Below are positions 9,613 through 19,517 of a stretch of 34,183 bases of DNA, piece by piece. The notes under the pieces are model-generated. The model was given only the letters and a program-made list of their open reading frames with translations. It ran no database searches and was not told where the DNA came from. Every line of letters begins with the position of its first letter. Within the stretch, counting starts at the first letter, position 1. The position numbers and the translations under genes were made by a program. The DNA comes from Bacillota bacterium (GTDB taxonomy: Bacteria; Bacillota_I; Bacilli_A; Erysipelotrichales; Coprobacillaceae): assembly GCA_030540195.1 (NCBI GenBank), contig JAUNWT010000016.1:1-34183 (forward strand), in the 5' to 3' direction.

Positions 9613-9664
9613 TAAAAAAACTCCCGTCTCAAAATAGCCAGTCCGGCCACTTTGAGGACGAGAG
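9613..9664 (-). terminator. Leu T-box leader attenuator terminator
   Basis: The minus-strand stem arms begin CTCTCGTCCTCAAAGTGGCC and end GGCTATTTTGAGACGGGAG, followed by a run of seven U. It lies between the T-box core (9676-9688) and leuA, as a class I T-box attenuator should. Charged tRNA(Leu) should allow this hairpin to form and stop transcription; uncharged tRNA should favour the antiterminator. Confidence 0.93.
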
Positions 9665-9911
9665 TTATATTACTTCGTGGTTCCACCTCAATTTGTGAAT
9701 AAATCACTTTATCCACCTCGCTAAGTACGCTACATAATAGTTCATACTCTTGCAAAATAACGGTTGCATACCGTAGCCACCTACTTAAGTTCAGCGCTCC
9801 ACTCAAGGATGAGTTCAGTATTACACAAACAATTCTTTTCACCAGCCAGAATTTCTCTACGCTTTGAAATAGTACTTACTAGTTCCTATCGAAGTATTTA
9901 TTTTATGGTTA
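9613..9911 (-). ncRNA. T-box riboswitch, leucine-specific (CUC specifier)
   Basis: Untranslated leader of about 300 nt from the promoter to leuA. The conserved T-box sequence reads AGGTGGAACCACG on the minus strand (9688 down to 9676), followed by the attenuator terminator. In stem I an AGTAAGTA segment is followed by the specifier-loop context GAA-CTC-A (codon at 9813-9811) and then TCCTTGAGT. The same layout around an ATG codon occurs in the second T-box of this window, which supports the assignment. CUC is a leucine codon and the downstream genes make leucine. The variable T-box base is A (UGGA), whereas pairing with the A73 usual in tRNA(Leu) would call for U. Confidence 0.93.
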
Positions 9912-10002: not shown

Positions 10003-11043
10003 TTATTTATCAAAAGCAAGTTTAATTACTCTATCTAAAAGTTCACTATAAGAAATACCAAAGTCATTCATTAATTGTGGATACATTGAAATCTTTGTAA
10101 ATCCAGGTAATGTGTTGATTTCATTTAAATAGATTTGATTTGATTTCTTATCTAAGAAGAAATCAACTCTTGATAAACCATGTCCATCAACTGCTTTGAA
10201 AACTCTTAAAGCATATTCACGAATTTTATCTTGAATTTCTTGATCAACTAAAGCTGGAATACATGTTTTACTTTCTTCATCTTCATATTTAGATTCAAAA
10301 GTATAGAATTCACCATGAGGCATAATTTGTCCCACACGTGATACAATTGGATCATCATTTCCTAAAACCGCTGTTTCAAGTTCAATACAATCCACACATT
10401 CTTCTACAACAATATGACGATCATATTTTGAAGCTTCAATAAGTTTAGTCATTAAATCTTCTTTATGATCACAACGATAACATCCAACACTTGAACCCGA
10501 ACGGCTTGCTTTAATAAAGCATGGGAATCCTAATTCTTCTTCTACTGTTTTTTCAATATCTTCAATTTCATCAAATTGTTTATTTACAACAACAAGTTTT
10601 CCATCATATCTTTTTTTAACATATAAGGATTTTACTTGCGGAATTCCTGCAGTTTCTAAAATCTTCTTTGTATAGATTTTATCCATAGATACTGCCGAAG
10701 CTAAAACACGACATCCTACATAAGGAACCCCAGCAAGTTCAAATAAACCTTGAATCGTTCCATCTTCACCAAAAGCCCCATGTAAGATTGGTAAAACAAC
10801 ATCTTGTTGTTTTAATAAACCAAAAACATCTTGAACAGCCTTTGAATTTTCTAACCAAGTATCTTTAGCAAGATCTTCTTGGTTTTGATCTAAGATATAC
10901 CAAGAACCCTCTTGATCAATTCCTACTAAAGTCACATCATAATGATCTTTATTCAAATTATTCATTACTGAAGTACAAGACATACGAGAAACGATATGTT
11001 CACTCGATTGTCCGCCACAAACAACCATTAATTTTTGTTTCAT
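10003..11043 (-). CDS. ddl: D-alanine--D-alanine ligase
   Basis: ATP-grasp enzyme that makes the D-Ala-D-Ala dipeptide used by MurF. The 346 residues are standard. Visible motifs are the N-terminal VVCGGQSSEH, the loop HGAFGEDGTIQG, KASRSGSSVG in the ATP-grasp domain, and LNEINTLPGFT at the metal site. The omega-loop context FYTFESKYED has the tyrosine/lysine pattern of D-Ala-D-Ala ligases rather than the histidine pattern of VanA-type D-Lac ligases, so no vancomycin resistance is implied. The RBS AAGGAG overlaps the stop of the preceding lysozyme-like gene. It is the last gene of the wall operon; I see no convincing terminator before the leu promoter. Confidence 0.96.
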   Translation of the reverse strand: MKQKLMVVCGGQSSEHIVSRMSCTSVMNNLNKDHYDVTLVGIDQEGSWYILDQNQEDLAKDTWLENSKAVQDVFGLLKQQDVVLPILHGAFGEDGTIQGLFELAGVPYVGCRVLASAVSMDKIYTKKILETAGIPQVKSLYVKKRYDGKLVVVNKQFDEIEDIEKTVEEELGFPCFIKASRSGSSVGCYRCDHKEDLMTKLIEASKYDRHIVVEECVDCIELETAVLGNDDPIVSRVGQIMPHGEFYTFESKYEDEESKTCIPALVDQEIQDKIREYALRVFKAVDGHGLSRVDFFLDKKSNQIYLNEINTLPGFTKISMYPQLMNDFGISYSELLDRVIKLAFDK

Positions 11044-11053
11044 AATAATCTCC

Positions 11054-11677
11054 TTATCGATATAATTCTAACCAATCATCAACAAGAGTAGTATCTGTAT
11101 AATATCGTAAAACATGATAGACATACTTACTATCTCCATAGACGGATGCATTATATTCTTTTTTACATTTTTCAGAAAACGCTATAGCATTTTGATAAGT
11201 GTATTGCTTGTCAGTTTGTTCAACATATTTAATATATCCAATACCATAATTATAAGATTGTAAGGCTAAAAAGATACCTTTTTCATCTTTTAAGGATGTT
11301 ACATTTGCTTGTTTTAAACACTTTGCAAAATATTGGATTCCTACTTGAATAGAATATTCAGGATCATTGATGGCATTGGGTTTCTTTTCAAACTGTGTAT
11401 TAAATTCACATTCTGAAGATTGCATTGGGTCATTTCCTTGCCCACCTGATTCTTGCATCATCATCGCTTGTAATAATTCTAAATATTCTTCTATATCATT
11501 TTCTCTAGCATATTTTAGCATTAAATCTTCATAATTCAATACCTGAGTTGAAACCAATGGATTCTCTTGTTTAAATTGATTTTTAATCAACTGATAGAAA
11601 GAAAATGCTAGTAGAAATAAAAGCGCAGCTAAAAGAAGTTGAAATGGTTTTTTTAATTTATATTTTTTCTTTTTCAT
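11054..11677 (-). CDS. Membrane-anchored lysozyme-like protein (CwlT-type muramidase fold)
   Basis: Predicted peptidoglycan hydrolase of 207 residues. A basic N terminus and one membrane segment (about 12-31) place the rest outside the cell. The catalytic domain starts near residue 48 and contains MMQESGG (likely catalytic E76), DPMQSSE, SIQVGIQYFAKCL and LQSYNYG. These match the 'lysozyme-like' domain found at the N terminus of CwlT from Tn916/ICEBs1, here without the NlpC/P60 partner domain. I chose ATG 11677, one base after the murF stop (TAAAATG); the longer frame needs a TTG start inside murF. Close coupling with murF and ddl suggests a wall-growth role instead of conjugation. Exact substrate is inferred from the family. 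Confidence 0.85.
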   Translation of the reverse strand: MKKKKYKLKKPFQLLLAALLFLLAFSFYQLIKNQFKQENPLVSTQVLNYEDLMLKYARENDIEEYLELLQAMMMQESGGQGNDPMQSSECEFNTQFEKKPNAINDPEYSIQVGIQYFAKCLKQANVTSLKDEKGIFLALQSYNYGIGYIKYVEQTDKQYTYQNAIAFSEKCKKEYNASVYGDSKYVYHVLRYYTDTTLVDDWLELYR

Positions 11678-11678
11678 T

Positions 11679-13010
11679 TTAAATCTTTTCAACAACTTCT
11701 TTTAAATTCATCGAATGACTGCCTTTAACTAAAATCACATCATCCTCTTTTAATAATGTATCTAAATGATCAATGACTTCTTGATTCGTTTCAAAATAAT
11801 AAACATCATTCATACTTTCTTTAGCTTTTTGATAAATATATTTTGCTTCTTTACCCACACATACTAATACATCAATTCCTTTAGAAGCCACATAACTTCC
11901 CACTTCTTCATGAAGTTGTTGACTATAATTTCCAAGTTCTAACATATCTGCCAAGATAGCAACTTTACGTTTTTTATAATTAGCTAAAACATCAATACTT
12001 GATTTCATTGAATCAACACTGGCATTATAGGTTCCATCAATAACAGTTTTATGATTTTTTTCAAGAATATCCATACGATTCTTCGTTAATTTAAATTCTT
12101 GAATTCCTTTTTTAATATCTTCTAATGGAATATTTAATTCAATACCTACTGCAATCGCAATTAAAGCATTTGAAATATTATGTTCTCCTTGAACTGGTAC
12201 TTCAATGATTTCTTTCTTTCCTTGATATTCCACTTCAAACGAACTCTTTGTTTCTTCTAAGACAATATGACTTGCTTGAATCGAAGCTTCTTTACTTTTT
12301 CCTACACGAACTACATTTAAATGAGGAAGATCCACAGTTTGTAACATGTCATTATCTTGATTGATAATTAAAGTTGAGCCATCTTTCATTCCATCGGTGA
12401 TTTCTAATTTCGCTTTTAAAATATTTTCACGACTTCCTAATTCTCCAATATGAGCTGTTCCAACATTCGTAATACAAGCAATATCAGGACGAGCAATCAT
12501 TGATAAACGAGACATTTCTTGTAAATGATTCATTCCCATTTCTAAAACGAGGACTTCTTCACCTTGATATCTTAAAATCGTAAGAGGTAGCCCAATTTCA
12601 TTATTGTAGTTTCCTTCAGTTTTAAGGGTCTTATATTTTTGTTTAACTACACTATAGACCATATCTCTGGTACTTGTTTTTCCTACACTTCCTGTCACCC
12701 CAACAACTTTTACAGGGCGATGACTTCTTAAATAGCTTGCCATATCTTTTAAGGCTTGATACGTATCTTTGACTTTGATTACAATTTTATCTTCATAGCT
12801 GACATCTTTTTCACTAATGATTGCTTGTGCTCCTGTTTGAAAGGCACTTTCAATAAAATCATGACCATCAAATCTTTCTCCTTTTAAAGGAATATACATT
12901 CCTCCATTTGTCATTTGACGACTATCTTGACTAAAGAAATTAATTTCATCATATTTATTTCCTGACACAAGAATTCCTTGTGTTGCTTCTACAATTTCAT
13001 ATACTTTCAT
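11679..13010 (-). CDS. murF: UDP-N-acetylmuramoyl-tripeptide--D-alanyl-D-alanine ligase
   Basis: Cytosolic Mur ligase that adds D-Ala-D-Ala (made by the nearby ddl) to the UDP-MurNAc-tripeptide. The 443 residues contain the N-terminal substrate domain with FSQDSRQM and GERFDGHDF, the ATP-binding GVTGSVGKTST (105-115), the central EMGMNHLQEMSRLS and NVGTAHIGELGS motifs, and the C-terminal DGTYNASVDSMKSS and VKGSHSMNL. These are MurF-specific features, not MurE ones. The RBS AGGAG overlaps the stop codon of the zinc-ribbon gene upstream (TAGGAGAAAAATATG), so the two are co-transcribed and probably translationally coupled. Confidence 0.97.
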   Translation of the reverse strand: MKVYEIVEATQGILVSGNKYDEINFFSQDSRQMTNGGMYIPLKGERFDGHDFIESAFQTGAQAIISEKDVSYEDKIVIKVKDTYQALKDMASYLRSHRPVKVVGVTGSVGKTSTRDMVYSVVKQKYKTLKTEGNYNNEIGLPLTILRYQGEEVLVLEMGMNHLQEMSRLSMIARPDIACITNVGTAHIGELGSRENILKAKLEITDGMKDGSTLIINQDNDMLQTVDLPHLNVVRVGKSKEASIQASHIVLEETKSSFEVEYQGKKEIIEVPVQGEHNISNALIAIAVGIELNIPLEDIKKGIQEFKLTKNRMDILEKNHKTVIDGTYNASVDSMKSSIDVLANYKKRKVAILADMLELGNYSQQLHEEVGSYVASKGIDVLVCVGKEAKYIYQKAKESMNDVYYFETNQEVIDHLDTLLKEDDVILVKGSHSMNLKEVVEKI

Positions 13011-13019
13011 ATTTTTCTC

Positions 13020-14225
13020 CTATGCATCTTGTACATTTTCAAATGTTTCTGTTTGATTTGCACCTAAATAATATCTTTGACCTTCACTATTAAATACACA
13101 GAAGGTTTCTCCATCACTTTGTTCGTAACCTTCCATAAAAATATCATTCCCTAAAACTTGTAAATTTCTAGCCACAACATTTTTAAATAATACATGATCT
13201 TCTTTTCCACTTAAATTCATACAATTTACTTTTGTCGATGAAGCATAAATGATTTTATTTTCCACAAGAACCATTGATCTATTTTCTACTTCTTTGATGG
13301 TTTTTTGTTCAAGATTTTCTTTATTTACTTGAACAATTTTTGAACCATCTGATAAATAAAGAGAGTTATCATTTATAAAGAATTCACATTGACCATTATA
13401 AACTATATCAACTTTTTCATCCTCTAAATTCATTCTTTTTAAAGAATAATTTTCTTGTTCATCTTGACTTAAATAATAAATATATTTTCCATCAACTGTT
13501 ATATCATAGGTTGTTTCATCATTTATTTTTTTATTTTCTTTTGTTGATAAAGAGTAACAATAAAGACTTTCATGATCTTGATCTAATTGATAATAAAGAT
13601 CATCTCCTTTAATAATAGGATAATAAATATTTTCTAATATTTGTGTTGTTGTTTTTTCTTTTAAATCATAAGCTTGATAATTATAATTGGCATCACAATA
13701 ATAAAGAATATGATCTTTAATACTTAAATAACCTACACAATCATCAATGAGAACTTCACTTGTATCTAATTGATTCAAATCACTTACATATAATTGATTA
13801 TTTCTAACATAATAAAATGATTTTTGATCTTTAATCACTGTTCCACCTGATTGATTATTATAAGCAAGATTATATAAATTCACTTTTCCCTTTAACGCAT
13901 AATTTTCTTGATTCGTAGATGTTGACTTCGTTCCTTGAAGAGGATGACTTGTCATATAATTTCCTAAAAAGATAGAAGAGATACATAAAACAAGGGCAAT
14001 GATCCAAAGAATTGGCTTTTTCCAATAGCCTTTATAAGGATCCTCTTCTTCAACAACTTCCTCTTGTATTTGTCTTGTTCCACAAGCAGGACAAATTTCT
14101 TCATCTTCACTTAAAGGAAGATGACAACGAATGCATACTTTTTTTATTGGTTGAAGCTGTTTTCCACATTGAGGACAAAACAACATATCATCTTCGACAT
14201 ATGTTCCACATTGACTACAATACAT
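13020..14225 (-). CDS. Zinc-ribbon / membrane / beta-propeller-like protein (paralogue 2)
   Basis: Function unknown. The 401-residue protein starts with two zinc ribbons, each made of two CxxC knuckles (C3, C6, C17, C20; C31, C34, C45, C48), followed by an acidic linker (54-62) and one membrane segment (about 71-89). The remaining 300 residues hold about seven repeats of a strand pattern ending in aromatic pairs (for example DHILYYCD, GDDLYYQLD, GKYIYYLS, DNSLYLSDG, GNDIFMEG). This looks like a DUF5050-type beta-propeller; the family name is from memory. Positive residues before the membrane segment suggest ribbons inside and propeller outside. It heads the murF-lysozyme-ddl operon, 9 bp before murF, which hints at a wall-related role. 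Start ATG 14225 has an AGAGGTG site. Confidence 0.8.
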   Translation of the reverse strand: MYCSQCGTYVEDDMLFCPQCGKQLQPIKKVCIRCHLPLSEDEEICPACGTRQIQEEVVEEEDPYKGYWKKPILWIIALVLCISSIFLGNYMTSHPLQGTKSTSTNQENYALKGKVNLYNLAYNNQSGGTVIKDQKSFYYVRNNQLYVSDLNQLDTSEVLIDDCVGYLSIKDHILYYCDANYNYQAYDLKEKTTTQILENIYYPIIKGDDLYYQLDQDHESLYCYSLSTKENKKINDETTYDITVDGKYIYYLSQDEQENYSLKRMNLEDEKVDIVYNGQCEFFINDNSLYLSDGSKIVQVNKENLEQKTIKEVENRSMVLVENKIIYASSTKVNCMNLSGKEDHVLFKNVVARNLQVLGNDIFMEGYEQSDGETFCVFNSEGQRYYLGANQTETFENVQDA

Positions 14226-14248
14226 TTTTATTCACCTCTAGTGTCCTT

Positions 14249-14257
14249 ATTCTACCA
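14249..14257 (-). promoter_or_regulatory. Possible extended -10 promoter of the zinc-ribbon/murF/ddl operon
   Basis: The minus strand reads TGGTAGAAT, an extended -10 (TGn followed by TAGAAT at 14254-14249), just after the terminator of the preceding gene and about 25 bases before the ATG at 14225. No convincing -35 is visible. Confidence 0.45.
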
Positions 14258-14263
14258 TACAAA

Positions 14264-14296
14264 GAAAATAAAAAGAATGACTAAATTGTCATTCTT
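14264..14296 (-). terminator. Intrinsic terminator after the first zinc-ribbon gene
   Basis: Minus-strand AAGAATGAC, loop AATTTA, GTCATTCTT (stem 14273-14296), followed by TTTATTTTC. It begins at the stop codon and separates the two paralogous genes into different transcripts. Confidence 0.85.
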
Positions 14297-15677
14297 ATAA
14301 AGGGGCATATTCCCCATCATAGCTACTAATAAAATAATGGCGTGTATAATCGTCATCATAAGTAAAGAAAATCACTTTATCTCCAATGACATAAAAATCT
14401 CTAGCATCATCATATAGAGAATAGCTTTCATCATCACTATAAGCATCTAAAGCATTATCATAGTCTTCACTATAAACAATGACTTTTTCATTTTCTTCAT
14501 CTTTACCTACGCCAAAACGATAAATATCACTTATTTCTTGAACAACTTCTGAATCATCACTATTGAGATCTGATTTATAGACCCCATCATATTCTCGATA
14601 ATATAAGAAGCCATCGATAAAATACCCATCTCCATAGCTATTCATTTTATTTTTTAAAGTTGTTCCATTAAAATCAATCAATTGACTTTCATAATCTGTA
14701 TTTGTACATAAAATACGTTGATTTTGATCATCTACTGTAAATTCATAAATATTATCTTTGATTTTTTGATTATCAATAACATTTATATTTTCATCAATAG
14801 TTGCACAATAAAGCGTATCATCTCTAATATAGAAAATCTTTTGATCAAGAACATAACAATGACTTGCATCATTTAATAATGTTTTTCTTTTTGCATTAGA
14901 ATCCAAGAAAATGAAATCATTATAATTTTCATAGAAACATCCTCGATCATCAACATAAATATGATCACAGCTACTGTCTTCTAAAACCTCTTGATTTTCA
15001 AAATCAGCATCATATTTTACTAATTGATCATTCAAAGAAATGTAAAGTTCATTTTGATAAACAAAAGCACCACCATCACTATTTAAAAAGTTTTGATTGT
15101 AATCGCCTCTTGAACTATCTTGTTTTAAATTAAAACTTGATAAATCTGTATTTCCTTTACCATCAAAAGAAGATGTCGCTTCATCTGTTGTTTGTACAAT
15201 ATTTGTAATTGTATGAATAACAAACTGTGAAACTGGAATGAAGATAAAACATACCCCAAAAATAATTCCTATAAATGTTTTAATAAATGATTTTTGTTTA
15301 GGTTTTTTTCGCATATTCTTTTTTCTTGGTTGACTTTGAAACTTTTTAAAGGTTTCCTTATAATTCATACTATTTAAATCTTTTAATTGTTTAAATGAAT
15401 CTTTAAAATCATAAGCATTTTTCTTATAATCATAACTTTCTGATACCGTATTATAATTATGACTTTGTTCACTATGTACAATTATATCTGGTGTTACTTT
15501 TTTTATTGTATTATCTTTTCGATAGATTGTTGGACTTCCACAGTTAGAACAATATTCTTGATAGGGATAAATTAATTTAAAACAGACAGGGCATGTTGTT
15601 TTCCCAATTTGTTTATGTCCGCATAAGTGACATTCCAAACTATTACCAATCTCTACCCCACAATATTTACACTTCAT
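14295..15677 (-). CDS. Zinc-ribbon / membrane / beta-propeller-like protein (paralogue 1)
   Basis: Function unknown; same architecture as the next gene downstream. From ATG 15677 (AAGGAG seven bases upstream) it has 460 residues. Two zinc ribbons use C3, C6, C16, C19 and C29, C32, C43, C46. A longer, lysine-rich linker of about 80 residues follows, with a tyrosine/asparagine-rich stretch and a basic cluster (RKKNMRKKPKQK, 118-129), then one membrane segment (about 134-155). Beyond it are about seven aromatic-rich strand repeats (NELYISLND, QKIFYIRDD, DGFLYYREYD, DKVIFFTYDD) rich in Asp, compatible with an extracytoplasmic beta-propeller. The preceding metI terminator and its own terminator make it monocistronic. 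The domain reading is clear; the cellular role is not. Confidence 0.8.
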   Translation of the reverse strand: MKCKYCGVEIGNSLECHLCGHKQIGKTTCPVCFKLIYPYQEYCSNCGSPTIYRKDNTIKKVTPDIIVHSEQSHNYNTVSESYDYKKNAYDFKDSFKQLKDLNSMNYKETFKKFQSQPRKKNMRKKPKQKSFIKTFIGIIFGVCFIFIPVSQFVIHTITNIVQTTDEATSSFDGKGNTDLSSFNLKQDSSRGDYNQNFLNSDGGAFVYQNELYISLNDQLVKYDADFENQEVLEDSSCDHIYVDDRGCFYENYNDFIFLDSNAKRKTLLNDASHCYVLDQKIFYIRDDTLYCATIDENINVIDNQKIKDNIYEFTVDDQNQRILCTNTDYESQLIDFNGTTLKNKMNSYGDGYFIDGFLYYREYDGVYKSDLNSDDSEVVQEISDIYRFGVGKDEENEKVIVYSEDYDNALDAYSDDESYSLYDDARDFYVIGDKVIFFTYDDDYTRHYFISSYDGEYAPL

Positions 15678-15706
15678 ATTCCCACTCCTTTTTTCCATCA
15701 TATCAT

Positions 15707-15730
15707 AAAAAAAGACCTCTTGGGCCTTTT
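15707..15730 (-). terminator. Intrinsic terminator of the met operon
   Basis: Minus-strand AAGGCC, loop CAAGA, GGTCTT (one G·U pair), followed by a run of seven U. It starts at the metI stop codon. Confidence 0.87.
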
Positions 15731-16364
15731 AAGATAATTTTTTATATAAATGATTTCCGATTGTTTGGATAATTTGTACAAAGATAATAAGAATGATACT
15801 TGTAACAACAAGATAAGGAATCTTGTAGGCTTGATATCCATAACGAATAGCAATATCTCCAAGTCCTCCTGCCCCTAAGGCACCACCCATTGCACTATAG
15901 CCAATAATACTAATCATAGTAAGTGTTATTCCTGATAAAATAGCGGGAAAGGCTTCTTTTAAATAGATACGATAAATAATTTGAAAATCAGTTGCGCCAA
16001 ATGATTTAGCAGCTTCTATTAAACCAACATCTACACTTCTTAGTGCACTTTCGATAACTCTGGCAACAAAAGGTATTGCCGAAATCGTAAGAGGTACAAG
16101 AGCTGCCGTTGTTCCAATGGCTTTACCCGCAATAAGTCGTGTAAGAGGTATTACGATGACCATTAAAATCACAAATGGGAAACTTCTAAAGACGTTTACT
16201 AAAACATCTAGAATTGTATAAATAACTTTGTTTGGTTTTAATCCATCAGGTGCTGTGAGTGTTAAAATGATGGCAGGAATAAAACCTAAGACCACCGCAA
16301 AAAACGTTGATCCAATCACCATGTATAATGTTTCATAAGTTGCTTTTAAAATAACATCACTCAT
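15729..16364 (-). CDS. metI: Methionine ABC transporter, permease
   Basis: Membrane component of the MetNIQ importer of L/D-methionine. The 211-residue protein has about five membrane segments and the cytoplasmic EAA-type loop (AAKSFGATDFQIIYRIYLKEAFP) that docks on MetN. I chose ATG 16364: GGGAGG lies seven bases upstream, and the codon overlaps the metN stop as ATGA, indicating coupling. The longer frame adds only five residues. It is the last gene of the methionine T-box operon, and a terminator begins at its stop codon. Confidence 0.95.
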   Translation of the reverse strand: MSDVILKATYETLYMVIGSTFFAVVLGFIPAIILTLTAPDGLKPNKVIYTILDVLVNVFRSFPFVILMVIVIPLTRLIAGKAIGTTAALVPLTISAIPFVARVIESALRSVDVGLIEAAKSFGATDFQIIYRIYLKEAFPAILSGITLTMISIIGYSAMGGALGAGGLGDIAIRYGYQAYKIPYLVVTSIILIIFVQIIQTIGNHLYKKLS

Positions 16365-17329
16365 ACAATTTCCTCCCAAGTAATTCCTTCTTGATTTAAA
16401 TAATTTCCTACTGCTTGTAAATCTTTTTCTTCAATATTAATAATTAAGCTTCCCATCATTGAACCTCTAAAGTTTTCGAGTTTTCCTTGACAGATATCAA
16501 AGTTGATATCAAGGGTCCTAGCTAATTGGGTAATGGTATGTGATTTTGAATTATTATTGGTAAAGAATAATTTAATATTTTTTCCCGTTTGAGGAAGAAT
16601 TTCCACATCATCACCCACAAATTTTTGGATTTCTTGATTTGGTGCTACAAAAAGTTCTTCTGGTTTTCCAACCGATAAAACACGTCCATCTTTTAGGAAA
16701 GCAACTTTATTACAAATTTGTTTAATCACTTCCATTTGATGTGTAACGACTACAATTGTAATATTCATTTCTTTATTGATTTTTAATAAAAGATTGAGAA
16801 TATCTCTGGTAATTTGTGGATCTAAAGCTGATGTTGCTTCATCACACAATAGAATTTTAGGATTTAATACAAGTGCTCTAGCAATGGCTACTCTTTGTTT
16901 TTGTCCACCACTTAATTGACGAGGATAAGCTTGACTTTTTTCTTCCAAGCCAACAAGTTTTAATAAGTTTTCAATGCGTTGCTTGTTTTCTTGACTGTTT
17001 GGATCTTGTTTCCAAAATTTAAGAGGTAAAGCAATATTATCATAAACATTTAATCGATTTAAAAGATTAAAGTTTTGGAAGATCATTCCCATTTCTTTTT
17101 GAACAAAACTTAGTTGTTTTTTATCTAAAGAAGAAATTGCTTTTCCGTCAACCACTACTTCTCCTTTTTGAAAACTTTCTAAGCCATTAAAACAACGAAG
17201 GAGTGTTGATTTACCCGCACCACTTTGTCCAATAATCCCAAAGATATCACCTTGTTCAATGGAAAAAGAAACATCTTTTAATACTTCTAAATTTCCATAG
17301 CTTTTATACAAATTTTGAATTTCAATCAT
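16361..17329 (-). CDS. metN: Methionine ABC transporter, ATP-binding protein
   Basis: ATPase of the MetNIQ importer, 322 residues. Walker A GQSGAGKST lies at 34-42, the signature LSGGQKQRVAIARAL near 140, and Walker B ILLCDEATSALDP follows. The C-terminal NIL domain (about 245-322) is the regulatory domain that binds methionine and inhibits transport in characterised MetN proteins. I prefer ATG 17329, which has AAGGGG nine bases upstream; for the ATG at 17338 that site would be too close, and the longest frame runs into msrA. The RBS overlaps the restored msrA stop codon. Confidence 0.95.
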   Translation of the reverse strand: MIEIQNLYKSYGNLEVLKDVSFSIEQGDIFGIIGQSGAGKSTLLRCFNGLESFQKGEVVVDGKAISSLDKKQLSFVQKEMGMIFQNFNLLNRLNVYDNIALPLKFWKQDPNSQENKQRIENLLKLVGLEEKSQAYPRQLSGGQKQRVAIARALVLNPKILLCDEATSALDPQITRDILNLLLKINKEMNITIVVVTHQMEVIKQICNKVAFLKDGRVLSVGKPEELFVAPNQEIQKFVGDDVEILPQTGKNIKLFFTNNNSKSHTITQLARTLDINFDICQGKLENFRGSMMGSLIINIEEKDLQAVGNYLNQEGITWEEIV

Positions 17330-17342
17330 AAATCTCATCCCC

Positions 17343-17824
17343 TTATCCAAAGAAACATTGTCCAATATGGCAATATCCTTGTGGATTCTTTTCTAAATAC
17401 TTTTGATGGTATTCTTCTGCTTCATAGAAATTATCAAGAGGTTGTATTTCAACAACCACTTTTTCTTGATAATCCTTTTGTACCTCTTGTGTCTTTTTTG
17501 AATAATTTCTAAATCATTTTCATTAATATAATAAATACCTGTACGATAAGAAATTCCTTCATCTTCACCTTGTTTATTTAAAGAAGTTGGTTCAATAATT
17601 CTATAGTAATCATCTAAGATCTGTCTTAAACTTCTTTTACTTTCATCGTATTCCACTTTAACAGTTTCAACATGTCCTGTTTTTCCCACTTTTACATCTT
17701 CATATTTTGGATTTTCTGTATGTCCATTAGCATAACCTACTGTTGTTTGAATAATTCCTTCAAATTGGTCAAAATACTTTTGAACGCCCCAGAAGCATCC
17801 TCCCGCTAAATAAATAACACTCAT
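17343..17824 (-). pseudogene. msrA: Peptide-methionine (S)-S-oxide reductase with a -1 frameshift
   Basis: MsrA reduces methionine S-sulfoxide back to methionine. The N terminus is intact, with the catalytic cysteine in GGCFWG and GYANGHTENPKYEDV. The open frame continues normally to about DLEIIQK (near 17495) and then changes to a lysine-rich tail ending at 17393. A neighbouring frame supplies the missing MsrA C terminus ([18 protein letters not shown], then [14 protein letters not shown] and GYCHIG) and stops at 17343. One additional A in the six-A run (17493-17498) would join the two into a 160-residue MsrA of normal length. This is either a real null or phase-variable allele or a sequencing error at a homopolymer. 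It sits inside the met operon, 11 bp after metQ. Confidence 0.88.
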
Positions 17825-17835
17825 TTTAAATCTCC

Positions 17836-18657
17836 TTATTTTGTTGGATCTGTAAAGACATCTTTTACTGATCCTTTATATTTTTTAATATAGTTTTTCA
17901 CTTTTTTAGATTGTAATGCTTTCTTTAATGCTTTTGTTTTAGCTGTATTTTCATTTCCTTCTTTAACTACTAAATAGTTGATATAAGGTTGTGCTTCTTC
18001 ATCTGTAAAGCTTTCTGTAAGTAAGACGTTAGCACTATCTCCTAAGTTATGTTCTAATGCATAGTTTCCATTGATAACAGCAACATCAACATCTGGTAAG
18101 TTGTTTGGTAAGTTGGCTGCTTCTAATTCTTCAATTTTATAGTTATGTGGATTAGAAGTAATACTTGATGCTGTATAAAGTGTATCATCGTTTAATTCGA
18201 TTAAGTTGTTTTTAGCAAGTAAAGCTAACGCTCTTGATTCATTTGAACCATCATTTGGTATGGCAATTGTTGCCCCATCTTTTAAATCATCTAATGATTT
18301 TAAGTTTTCTGAATATAAAGCCATTGCTTCATAGTGAACTCCAGCGACTGCTTTTAAATGAAGTTTTCTTTCTTTGTTTTGTTCCTTTAAATAAGCAAGT
18401 GTTTGGAAATAGTTTGCATCTAAATCTCCATCTTCTAATGAAGTATTTGGCGTAACATAATCTGTAAATTCTGTGACTTCTAATGTATATCCTTCTTTTT
18501 CTAATTCATCTTTTACCACATCATTTAAGATTTCTGCATGTGGTATTGCTGTTGCCCCTACTTTAATTGTTTTATCATCACTTGATGAATTTCCTGCACA
18601 TCCTACGATTGAAAGTGCAAATGCTGCTGATAATAATAATTTGATTCCCTTTTTCAT
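17836..18657 (-). CDS. metQ: Methionine ABC transporter, substrate-binding lipoprotein
   Basis: NlpA/MetQ-family lipoprotein that captures methionine for MetN-MetI. The 273 residues begin with a lipoprotein signal peptide ending in IVGC (C20 as the lipidated cysteine). They continue with the typical KVGATAIPHAEIL strand, YVTPNTSLEDGDLDANYFQ and the ligand-region motifs IAIPNDGSNESRALALL and VAVINGNYAL. The start is supported by AAGGGAG upstream. It is the first gene after the AUG-specific T-box leader, which agrees with methionine as the ligand rather than another amino acid. Confidence 0.95.
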   Translation of the reverse strand: MKKGIKLLLSAAFALSIVGCAGNSSSDDKTIKVGATAIPHAEILNDVVKDELEKEGYTLEVTEFTDYVTPNTSLEDGDLDANYFQTLAYLKEQNKERKLHLKAVAGVHYEAMALYSENLKSLDDLKDGATIAIPNDGSNESRALALLAKNNLIELNDDTLYTASSITSNPHNYKIEELEAANLPNNLPDVDVAVINGNYALEHNLGDSANVLLTESFTDEEAQPYINYLVVKEGNENTAKTKALKKALQSKKVKNYIKKYKGSVKDVFTDPTK

Positions 18658-18698
18658 TTTTTTGTTCTCCCTTTTTCTTTTATATTCAATACAACAAA

Positions 18699-18730
18699 TA
18701 AAAAACTCGTCCTTTATACAAAGGACGAGT
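18699..18730 (-). terminator. Met T-box leader attenuator terminator
   Basis: A perfect 11-bp stem, ACTCGTCCTTT, with loop GTAT and AAAGGACGAGT, followed by a U run on the minus strand. It lies just after the T-box core and about 40 bases before metQ. Confidence 0.94.
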
Positions 18731-18961
18731 TACCTCGCGTTACCACCTTAATTTAAAATAACCTCACGATTATTTCCTCATCGAGTACTATCATACTCTA
18801 TCACTTTAACGGGTGAATCCGTCATAGCCTAACCCTTTGGGCTCGGTATGCAACTCCAAGGCCATTTTCGTTTACCTTCCATGTTTCTTTTCCACCAACC
18901 AAGAACTCTCTAGGCATTTTCAGTAAATTACTTTCCTTTTCAATGTCTTTATTGTATTGTT
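18699..18961 (-). ncRNA. T-box riboswitch, methionine-specific (AUG specifier)
   Basis: Leader of about 260 nt ahead of metQ. The T-box core reads AAGGTGGTAACGCGAGG on the minus strand (18749-18733), directly followed by the terminator. Stem I shows GGTGG near the apical region and the specifier context GAAA-ATG-G (codon at 18865-18863) followed by CCTTGGAGT. This parallels GAA-CTC-A plus TCCTTGAGT in the leucine leader. The UGGU variable base can pair with A73 of tRNA(Met). Uncharged tRNA(Met) should therefore switch on metQ-msrA-metN-metI. Confidence 0.94.
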
Positions 18962-19004: not shown

Positions 19005-19289
19005 TTATTTTTTTTCATCTTTTTCTACATAATCAACATCAATGATATCATCACTACCTTGACGGTAAGCTTCTCCAGATTGATAAGCTGCTTTCTTTTC
19101 AGCCATCTCTTTTTCAATCTTTTCATTGTATTCATTAATTTGTTTTTCATAAAAATATCTTCTAATAAAAGAATATAAAACCAAAACTCCTACAATAGCC
19201 CATGTAACAGGACTGAATAATAAATTTAAAAGAAGACTTAAAACTAAAATAACAACGACAATAATTAAAATAATTTGATAAATTGGCAT
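19005..19289 (-). CDS. Small membrane protein, unknown function
   Basis: A 94-residue protein I do not recognise. The N-terminal half is hydrophobic (about residues 4-25 and 28-42, either two short helices or a hairpin). It is followed by a charged, probably coiled segment (YEKQINEYNEKIEKEMAEKKAAY) and an acidic tail with DDIIDVDYVEKDEKK. The start is supported by an AGGAG-like site in the short gap after the upstream HTH gene. It is the last gene of the rapZ-whiA group, with the met promoter immediately behind it. It could be a membrane-associated accessory factor, but nothing in the sequence fixes a role. Confidence 0.7.
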   Translation of the reverse strand: MPIYQIILIIVVVILVLSLLLNLLFSPVTWAIVGVLVLYSFIRRYFYEKQINEYNEKIEKEMAEKKAAYQSGEAYRQGSDDIIDVDYVEKDEKK

Positions 19290-19298
19290 TTTTTTCTC

Positions 19299-19517
19299 CT
19301 ATTTGGAAAACGTAAATAAATCTTTGATTTCTACATGAAGCCCATAAGCTAATTTAGAAATTGCTTTCAAAGAAATATTACGTGTTCCTCTTTCTACATC
19401 TGATATATAATTTTTTGATAATCCACAGCGAAATGATAATTCTTCTTGAGAAATATGTGCTTTTAAACGTAATTCTTTAATTCGTAATCCAAACAAAATG
19501 TGAACATCTTTATTCAT
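19299..19517 (-). CDS. Small XRE-family helix-turn-helix regulator
   Basis: A 72-residue protein made almost entirely of one HTH_3 domain: LRIKELRLKAHISQEELS, then the recognition helix region GLSKNYISDVERGTRN. The pattern resembles stand-alone regulators such as the controller proteins of restriction-modification systems, but no restriction or methylase gene is nearby. The gene starts within the last codons of whiA (8-bp overlap) and lacks a clear RBS, so it is probably translated by coupling. Its target is unknown; the inverted repeat over the met promoter about 530 bp away is one candidate, which is speculation. Confidence 0.85.
   Translation of the reverse strand: MNKDVHILFGLRIKELRLKAHISQEELSFRCGLSKNYISDVERGTRNISLKAISKLAYGLHVEIKDLFTFSK

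Follow-up and report, generated by a model that had tools for sequence, protein, structure and literature searches.

What does a membrane protein with zinc ribbons at one end and a beta-propeller at the other do beside a cell wall gene? The question is raised by a 34,183-nt stretch of DNA from a member of the Coprobacillaceae (the window), in which two adjacent genes, P1 and P2, encode such proteins upstream of murF (Table 1). Wall genetics is little developed in the Coprobacillaceae, a family of Firmicutes common in the gut. A sequence-only reading had described the architecture and suggested that the proteins could report on wall state or regulate wall enzymes; the observation is confirmed, and the interpretation is supported in part. 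The domains, fold, charge-based orientation, homology, gene order and constraint of these proteins were established by computation. On these grounds, we tentatively favour, at a little under even confidence, a reading in which P1 and P2 are single-pass envelope receptors or adaptors whose ribbons are an output that docks an envelope-growth partner encoded by a neighbouring gene; the ligand, the partner, the signalling and the effect on the wall are what we infer.

Table 1. Positions of features in the window
Feature	Position	Strand	Remarks
T-box (Rfam RF00230)	9651..9901		overlaps 5' end of leuA as called (frame of 642 aa)
ddl (D-Ala-D-Ala ligase)	10003..11043	-	Pfam
Lysozyme-like gene	11054..11695	-	Lysozyme_like PF13702
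murF	11679..13010	-	Pfam Mur_ligase N, M, C
P1 stop/murF RBS overlap	13011..13022	-	TAGGAG, 9 nt to ATG; relatives arranged alike
P1	13020..14225	-	401 aa; zinc ribbons 1-52, membrane helix about 71-93, seven-bladed propeller (DUF5050) about 116-390
Terminator-like hairpin	14273..14296	-	at P2 stop; sets P2 apart from P1
P2	14295..15677	-	460 aa; zinc ribbons 1-50, conserved SYDYKK linker motif 81-86, membrane helix about 132-167, seven-bladed propeller about 190-460
Terminator-like hairpin	15710..15730	-	after metI, 5' of P2
metQ-msrA-metN-metI block with T-box	15729..18952	-	separates the small membrane protein gene from P2 in the window, G003 and G004 alone
msrA	17393..17824		frameshifted after about codon 107
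T-box (Rfam RF00230)	18718..18952		5' of the metQ block
Small membrane protein	19005..19289	-	94 aa; counterpart directly before P1 or P2 in 26 relatives
XRE-type helix-turn-helix (HTH) protein (HTH_3)	19299..19517	-	72 aa; between whiA and small membrane protein, order conserved

Architecture and distribution of P1 and P2

P1 passes the Pfam cut-offs for Zn_Ribbon_1 (two stretches), DZR (PF12773; 40.3 bits, cut-off 27.3 bits) and DUF5050 (PF16472; 59.6 bits, gathering cut-off 27 bits), and its four CxxC pairs supply eight ribbon cysteines. No Pfam family passes its cut-off in P2: ribbon families appear only below it (14.8 bits for DZR, against the same 27.3 bits), and DUF5050 has no match at E <= 1. 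P2 also has four CxxC pairs, with all eight cysteines invariant across 11 P2 rows, and the P2 relative in genome G061 passes the DUF5050 cut-off (40.7 bits). The two four-cysteine ribbons proposed for each protein are thus borne out by the CxxC pairs, by Pfam for P1 and by the invariant cysteines for P2. In a scan of NCBIfam, neither protein had a match above cut-off.

The proposed seven propeller repeats hold up in the AlphaFold models of both proteins, each of which has 28 strands in seven four-stranded blades. In the P1 model (30 P1 rows; pLDDT 86.6), the strands run over residues 130-386; the P2 model (11 P2 rows) has a pLDDT of 71.6, which is only fair. For both models, the best PDB match in Foldseek is 3S25 (EUBREC_1955 of Eubacterium rectale), titled as a 7-bladed beta-propeller-like protein. 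The likeness to P1 extends to sequence, 3S25 being the best sequence match of the P1 profile as well (E 1.6e-20). For the P1 fold, VIA-align gives Z 24.9 and rmsd 3.3 over 264 aligned residues, with the next row 3 lower. A phmmer search of PDB sequences with P1 returned zinc-ribbon matches at chance level and nothing else. The 3S25 crystal holds the propeller alone, so the N-terminal parts fall outside the comparison, and its title gives no function; in the accessible part of PMC6143338, 3S25 figures only in an electrostatics comparison.

Each protein has a single hydrophobic segment, at residue 72 in P1 and 136 in P2, and lysines and arginines in the 15 residues before and after it number 3 and 1 in P1 and 6 and 0 in P2. 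The same bias is found in 36 of 37 aligned homologues of P1 and P2 taken together, with one tie and no case of the opposite. A single helix with a positive-inside flank is the pattern of a one-pass protein with its N-terminus inside, and the charge bias is what would be expected if the ribbons lie inside and the propeller outside. This predicted orientation, called from hydropathy and charge alone, agrees with the layout first proposed. The C-terminal part is acidic in both proteins.

Are P1 and P2 related to each other? BLASTP left this doubtful (E 0.001-0.005), but profile-profile comparison settles it, with a probability of 100% and an E-value of 2.9e-39 over 389 columns; hence the two are full-length homologues, and their description as paralogues stands. 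They fall on opposite sides of one branch in a 42-row tree (support 100/97), a placement consistent with an old duplication. Outside the window's genus, P2 is found in genus g4 alone. Its start is placed at the ATG at 15677, with AAGGAG just 5'; if translation began at the ATG at 15701, P2 would be 468 aa long. The earlier suggestion that P2 is monocistronic is consistent with the two terminator-like hairpins that flank it, which are sequence signals alone.

The closest named genomes are those of Faecalibacillus faecis (87% identity to P1) and F. intestinalis (67%), both placed by NCBI in the Coprobacillaceae, and a scan of genome contigs with P1 found four close relatives only. DUF5050 occurs in 42 of 43 genomes of the window's family (f1) and in 23 of 201 in the rest of the order. 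P1 is thus a near-universal gene of the family; in the 43rd genome (G032), no P1 was found, and the contig stops just past the small membrane protein. Among 295 genomes sampled from the phylum, all of which belong to the window's own class, ribbons and propeller were both covered only in f1, and elsewhere just one end matched. Accordingly, the claim of a rare architecture stands for the full-length fusion within that sample, but not for DUF5050 and the ribbons singly, which are common domains. The ribbon-membrane-DUF5050 arrangement may be common elsewhere, for example in Clostridia.

Gene order on both sides of P1

The sequence-only reading made P1 the first gene of an operon with murF, a lysozyme-like gene and ddl. 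In the window, the stop codon TAG of P1 runs into TAGGAGAAAAATATG of murF, as the reading had it. Counts for P1 or its positional counterpart in 42 f1 genomes, the kind of survey that the sequence-only reading had asked for, indicate that the neighbourhood is kept across the family: murF lies within about 1.6 kb 3' of P1 in 35, with a spacing of 0-12 nt in 23 (20 of the 30 loci of one set, the window, G001 and G013), 78-168 nt in 5 and one or two intervening ORFs in 7. In genus g4, P1 stands directly before murF-ddl in 9 of 9 genomes. P1 is far from murF in six genomes (G007, G011, G012, G014, G027 and G035), and in G060 a contig end cuts the region. The proposed gene order is therefore supported for murF and ddl family-wide, but its lysozyme-like member is narrow: this gene adjoins murF in only seven genomes, six of the window's genus and G017.

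Several relatives have an ORF of 111-118 aa between P1 and murF (for example L060:10465-10800 and L064:9622-9978), which matches no Pfam family and begins on or beside the P1 stop codon. An extra gene with a hydrophobic N-terminus lies in the same interval in G010 (L064:10035-11093), where it matches Exo_endo_phos, and in G026 (L068:6850-7947). Beyond ddl, the overlap of a T-box with the called leuA frame suggests that leuA probably starts further 3', past the T-box.

Equally tight coupling is found on the other side. A small membrane protein of roughly 80-120 aa comes directly before P1 in 24 genomes and directly before P2 in G002 and G005; in most of these genomes, the small membrane protein is itself preceded by an HTH protein of roughly 70-80 aa and whiA. 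Of the 24 gaps to P1 that were measured, 23 fall between -1 and 38 nt, and the remaining one is 90 nt. Seven genomes (G013, G017, G020, G022, G024, G028 and G030) have both murF and the small membrane protein tightly coupled to P1. Five of the six genomes in which P1 is far from murF keep it with the whiA block, G007 having neither neighbour, and in genus g4 whiA, the HTH gene and the small membrane protein gene lie away from P1 in the five genomes read. Since P1 can be away from murF (six genomes) or from whiA (g4), neither neighbour is obligatory. The description of P1 as the first gene of a wall operon thus fits its coupling to murF but leaves out an upstream link that is just as tight.

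The family as a whole keeps the HTH and small membrane protein genes together behind whiA, also in genomes from which P1 has moved off. The small membrane protein matches no Pfam family above cut-off and has a recurring IIDVDY-type tail. In the met block, the C-terminal remainder of the window's msrA is readable in another frame; msrA is intact (160 aa) in G003 and G004, and the frameshift could be an assembly error.

Constraint and loss of the propeller

Which end of these proteins is constrained? Nei-Gojobori dN/dS, computed with our own script for the window against G003 and G004 (three species in all), is 0.052 and 0.040 for the ribbons of P1 and 0.281 and 0.497 for its outside part; the corresponding values for P2 are 0.026 and 0.027 for the ribbons and 0.178 and 0.397 for the outside part. 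For reference, murF gives 0.075 and 0.149 and whiA 0.016 and 0.053. The constrained part is therefore the inside ribbons and not the outside propeller, although constraint on cysteines and fold alone may explain low values over about 50 residues.

One patch of the P1 propeller departs from this pattern. On a 0-1 scale, mean conservation is 0.61 for blade 3, comparable to 0.62 and 0.58 for the ribbons, and 0.42-0.53 for the remaining, fast-evolving blades. Y202, Y211, Q213, D215, E219 and Y290 do not vary in any of the 30 P1 rows, and the 215-219 turn connects strands 2 and 3 of blade 3, as placed by strand order in the model (the B-C loop). This loop is shortened in the P2 rows, and E219 is kept in none of 29 aligned stretches from 12 DUF5050-like proteins of the sister family f2.

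The propeller can also be absent. P2 of G002 and G005 ends just past the helix (159 and 147 aa), retaining the ribbons and a SYDYKK-type cytosolic motif; the roughly 80-130 nt between P2 and P1 leave no room for a propeller. The P1 tree pairs these two genomes as sisters, and a single loss therefore probably accounts for both. The P1 position of G013 is taken by a protein of 152 aa that has a helix and ribbons (three Zn_Ribbon_1 stretches) but no propeller; the gap is 1 nt to the small membrane protein before it and 11 nt to murF after it. Together, these cases amount to at least two losses of the propeller with the inside half kept in place. Elsewhere in its genome, G013 has a DUF5050 protein that begins like a lipoprotein (L126:7691-8812; 29.1 bits), and in G026 P1 is split into frames of 312 and 84 aa (L068:8390-9654).

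Possible functions of P1 and P2

Proteins that resemble P1 in one part or another are found in other systems. TcaA of Staphylococcus aureus has a one-pass layout and is not known to have a propeller. The Pfam matches of P1 and P2 at E <= 1 include no TcaA family, a result that would tell against membership only if the library contains TcaA models. TcaA is a zinc-ribbon protein linked to the glycopeptide response, according to the accessible part of PMC10611510. In Bacillus subtilis, YdjG of the PspA-YdjGHI system has two zinc ribbons and a membrane segment, as described in the part of PMC11237479 available; YdjI and PspA require it for membrane localisation, and its loss disturbs the pattern of wall synthesis under alkali shock, as reported in the available part of PMC8581546. 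YdjG is like P1 and P2 in its ribbons and membrane segment but has an NTF2/YpeB-like domain instead of a propeller and belongs to another operon. Conversely, TsgL of T7SSg in Acetivibrio and Paenibacillus, named as a DUF5050 propeller in PMC11217815 (seen in part), shares the propeller but belongs to a type VII secretion locus; a term search of the main text of that paper found no mention of a zinc ribbon.

Family f2 has proteins that combine Pfam TIR_2, a membrane helix and DUF5050 (L133:5853-7334, L134:6132-7607, L142:5186-6766). Like P1, they are membrane-spanning with a C-terminal propeller; unlike P1, they have TIR in place of the zinc ribbons, and murF is absent from the regions read. 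In L143 of the same family, a propeller beside TIR is detected by the P1 profile only. An anti-phage defence reading was dropped, the best PADLOC-DB E-value being 0.023 for P1 with none for P2. Literature searches for DUF5050, for zinc ribbon with beta-propeller and membrane, and for TIR with beta-propeller, in the partial texts they returned, brought up nothing evident on the ribbon-membrane-DUF5050 architecture, which is hardly present in that literature.

Constraint inside, one conserved patch outside and one helix between them form the pattern expected of a receptor or adaptor, and the same propeller on a TIR output in f2 fits receptor-style domain swapping. Taken together with the YdjG precedent, these features favour the membrane receptor or adaptor reading. 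The propeller would lie outside, where in P1 the B-C loop of blade 3 (Q213-D215-E219) may take an envelope ligand or protein; the helix would connect it to two cytosolic zinc ribbons, the constrained output, to which a partner in the cytosol or the membrane would dock. That partner would most likely be an envelope-growth factor from an adjoining gene, whether on the upstream side (the small membrane protein and the HTH protein) or on the downstream side (the precursor enzymes MurF and Ddl), and P1 and P2 might hold or gate it at the membrane according to conditions outside, as YdjG helps hold YdjI/PspA. P2, an old paralogue, is without the blade-3 loop; an invariant cytosolic E-x-Y-D-Y motif is its own. 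Zinc ribbons are also generic interaction modules, which counts against the receptor or adaptor reading. A bolder form, in which a family-wide Coprobacillaceae gene for transmembrane signalling connects the outside propeller, by way of a blade-3 ligand site, with ribbons that control the envelope growth genes on either side, WhiA and HTH upstream together with MurF and Ddl downstream, as one of a modular receptor class with the propeller on zinc-ribbon or TIR outputs, is improbable.

Several alternatives explain parts of the same evidence. P1 might work with the whiA-HTH-small membrane protein module in cell-cycle or envelope regulation, with murF as merely the next gene on a conserved stretch. 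The short upstream gap, the five genomes in which P1 remains there without murF and the promoter-like sequence that murF has of its own in several relatives all argue for this, but g4 keeps P1 before murF-ddl with the upstream module elsewhere, and the direct coupling of P1 to murF recurs in 23 genomes; we regard this explanation as possible though rather unlikely. Because the whiA-side link is as strong as the murF link, the regulation of wall enzymes is one option and not the finding. In its narrow form, the sequence-only reading would have P1 act on MurF and Ddl directly, with the ribbons as a membrane tether for the precursor enzymes and the propeller as a reporter of wall state. Abutting genes or stop-codon/RBS coupling in 23 of 42 genomes, with ddl after murF, are consistent with such action; set against the six genomes in which P1 and murF are apart, and several others with a terminator and promoter or another gene between them, it appears quite unlikely.

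An equally doubtful alternative takes P1 for a generic membrane protein with zinc ribbons, its position a reflection of slow rearrangement of rapZ-whiA...murF-ddl-leuA without a functional link. The genes leuA-ilvN-ilvC-leuC, which have no known functional link to murF, are often as syntenic with it, and full-length P1 is limited to one family, and both speak for such passive synteny; however, overlapping or abutting frames recur in rows just 20-25% identical to P1, and one or other P1 neighbour is retained through most rearrangements. Least probable of all is that the propeller is mainly a surface domain for binding or shielding (adhesin-like, wall- or nutrient-binding), with the ribbons as an inside anchor only. 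Propeller-only DUF5050 proteins with lipoprotein-like starts do occur in f2, but constraint is much stronger on the ribbons than on the propeller, and versions lacking the propeller persist.

The interest of P1 lies chiefly in its being near-universal in the family, in its position between two envelope or cell-cycle gene blocks and in its near-absence from the literature searched. The natural variants without a propeller are ready-made controls, and the contrast between ribbons and blade 3 points to the ends worth testing. If the receptor or adaptor reading is correct, nearly every member of the Coprobacillaceae would have a membrane receptor translationally coupled to MurF or to the WhiA block.
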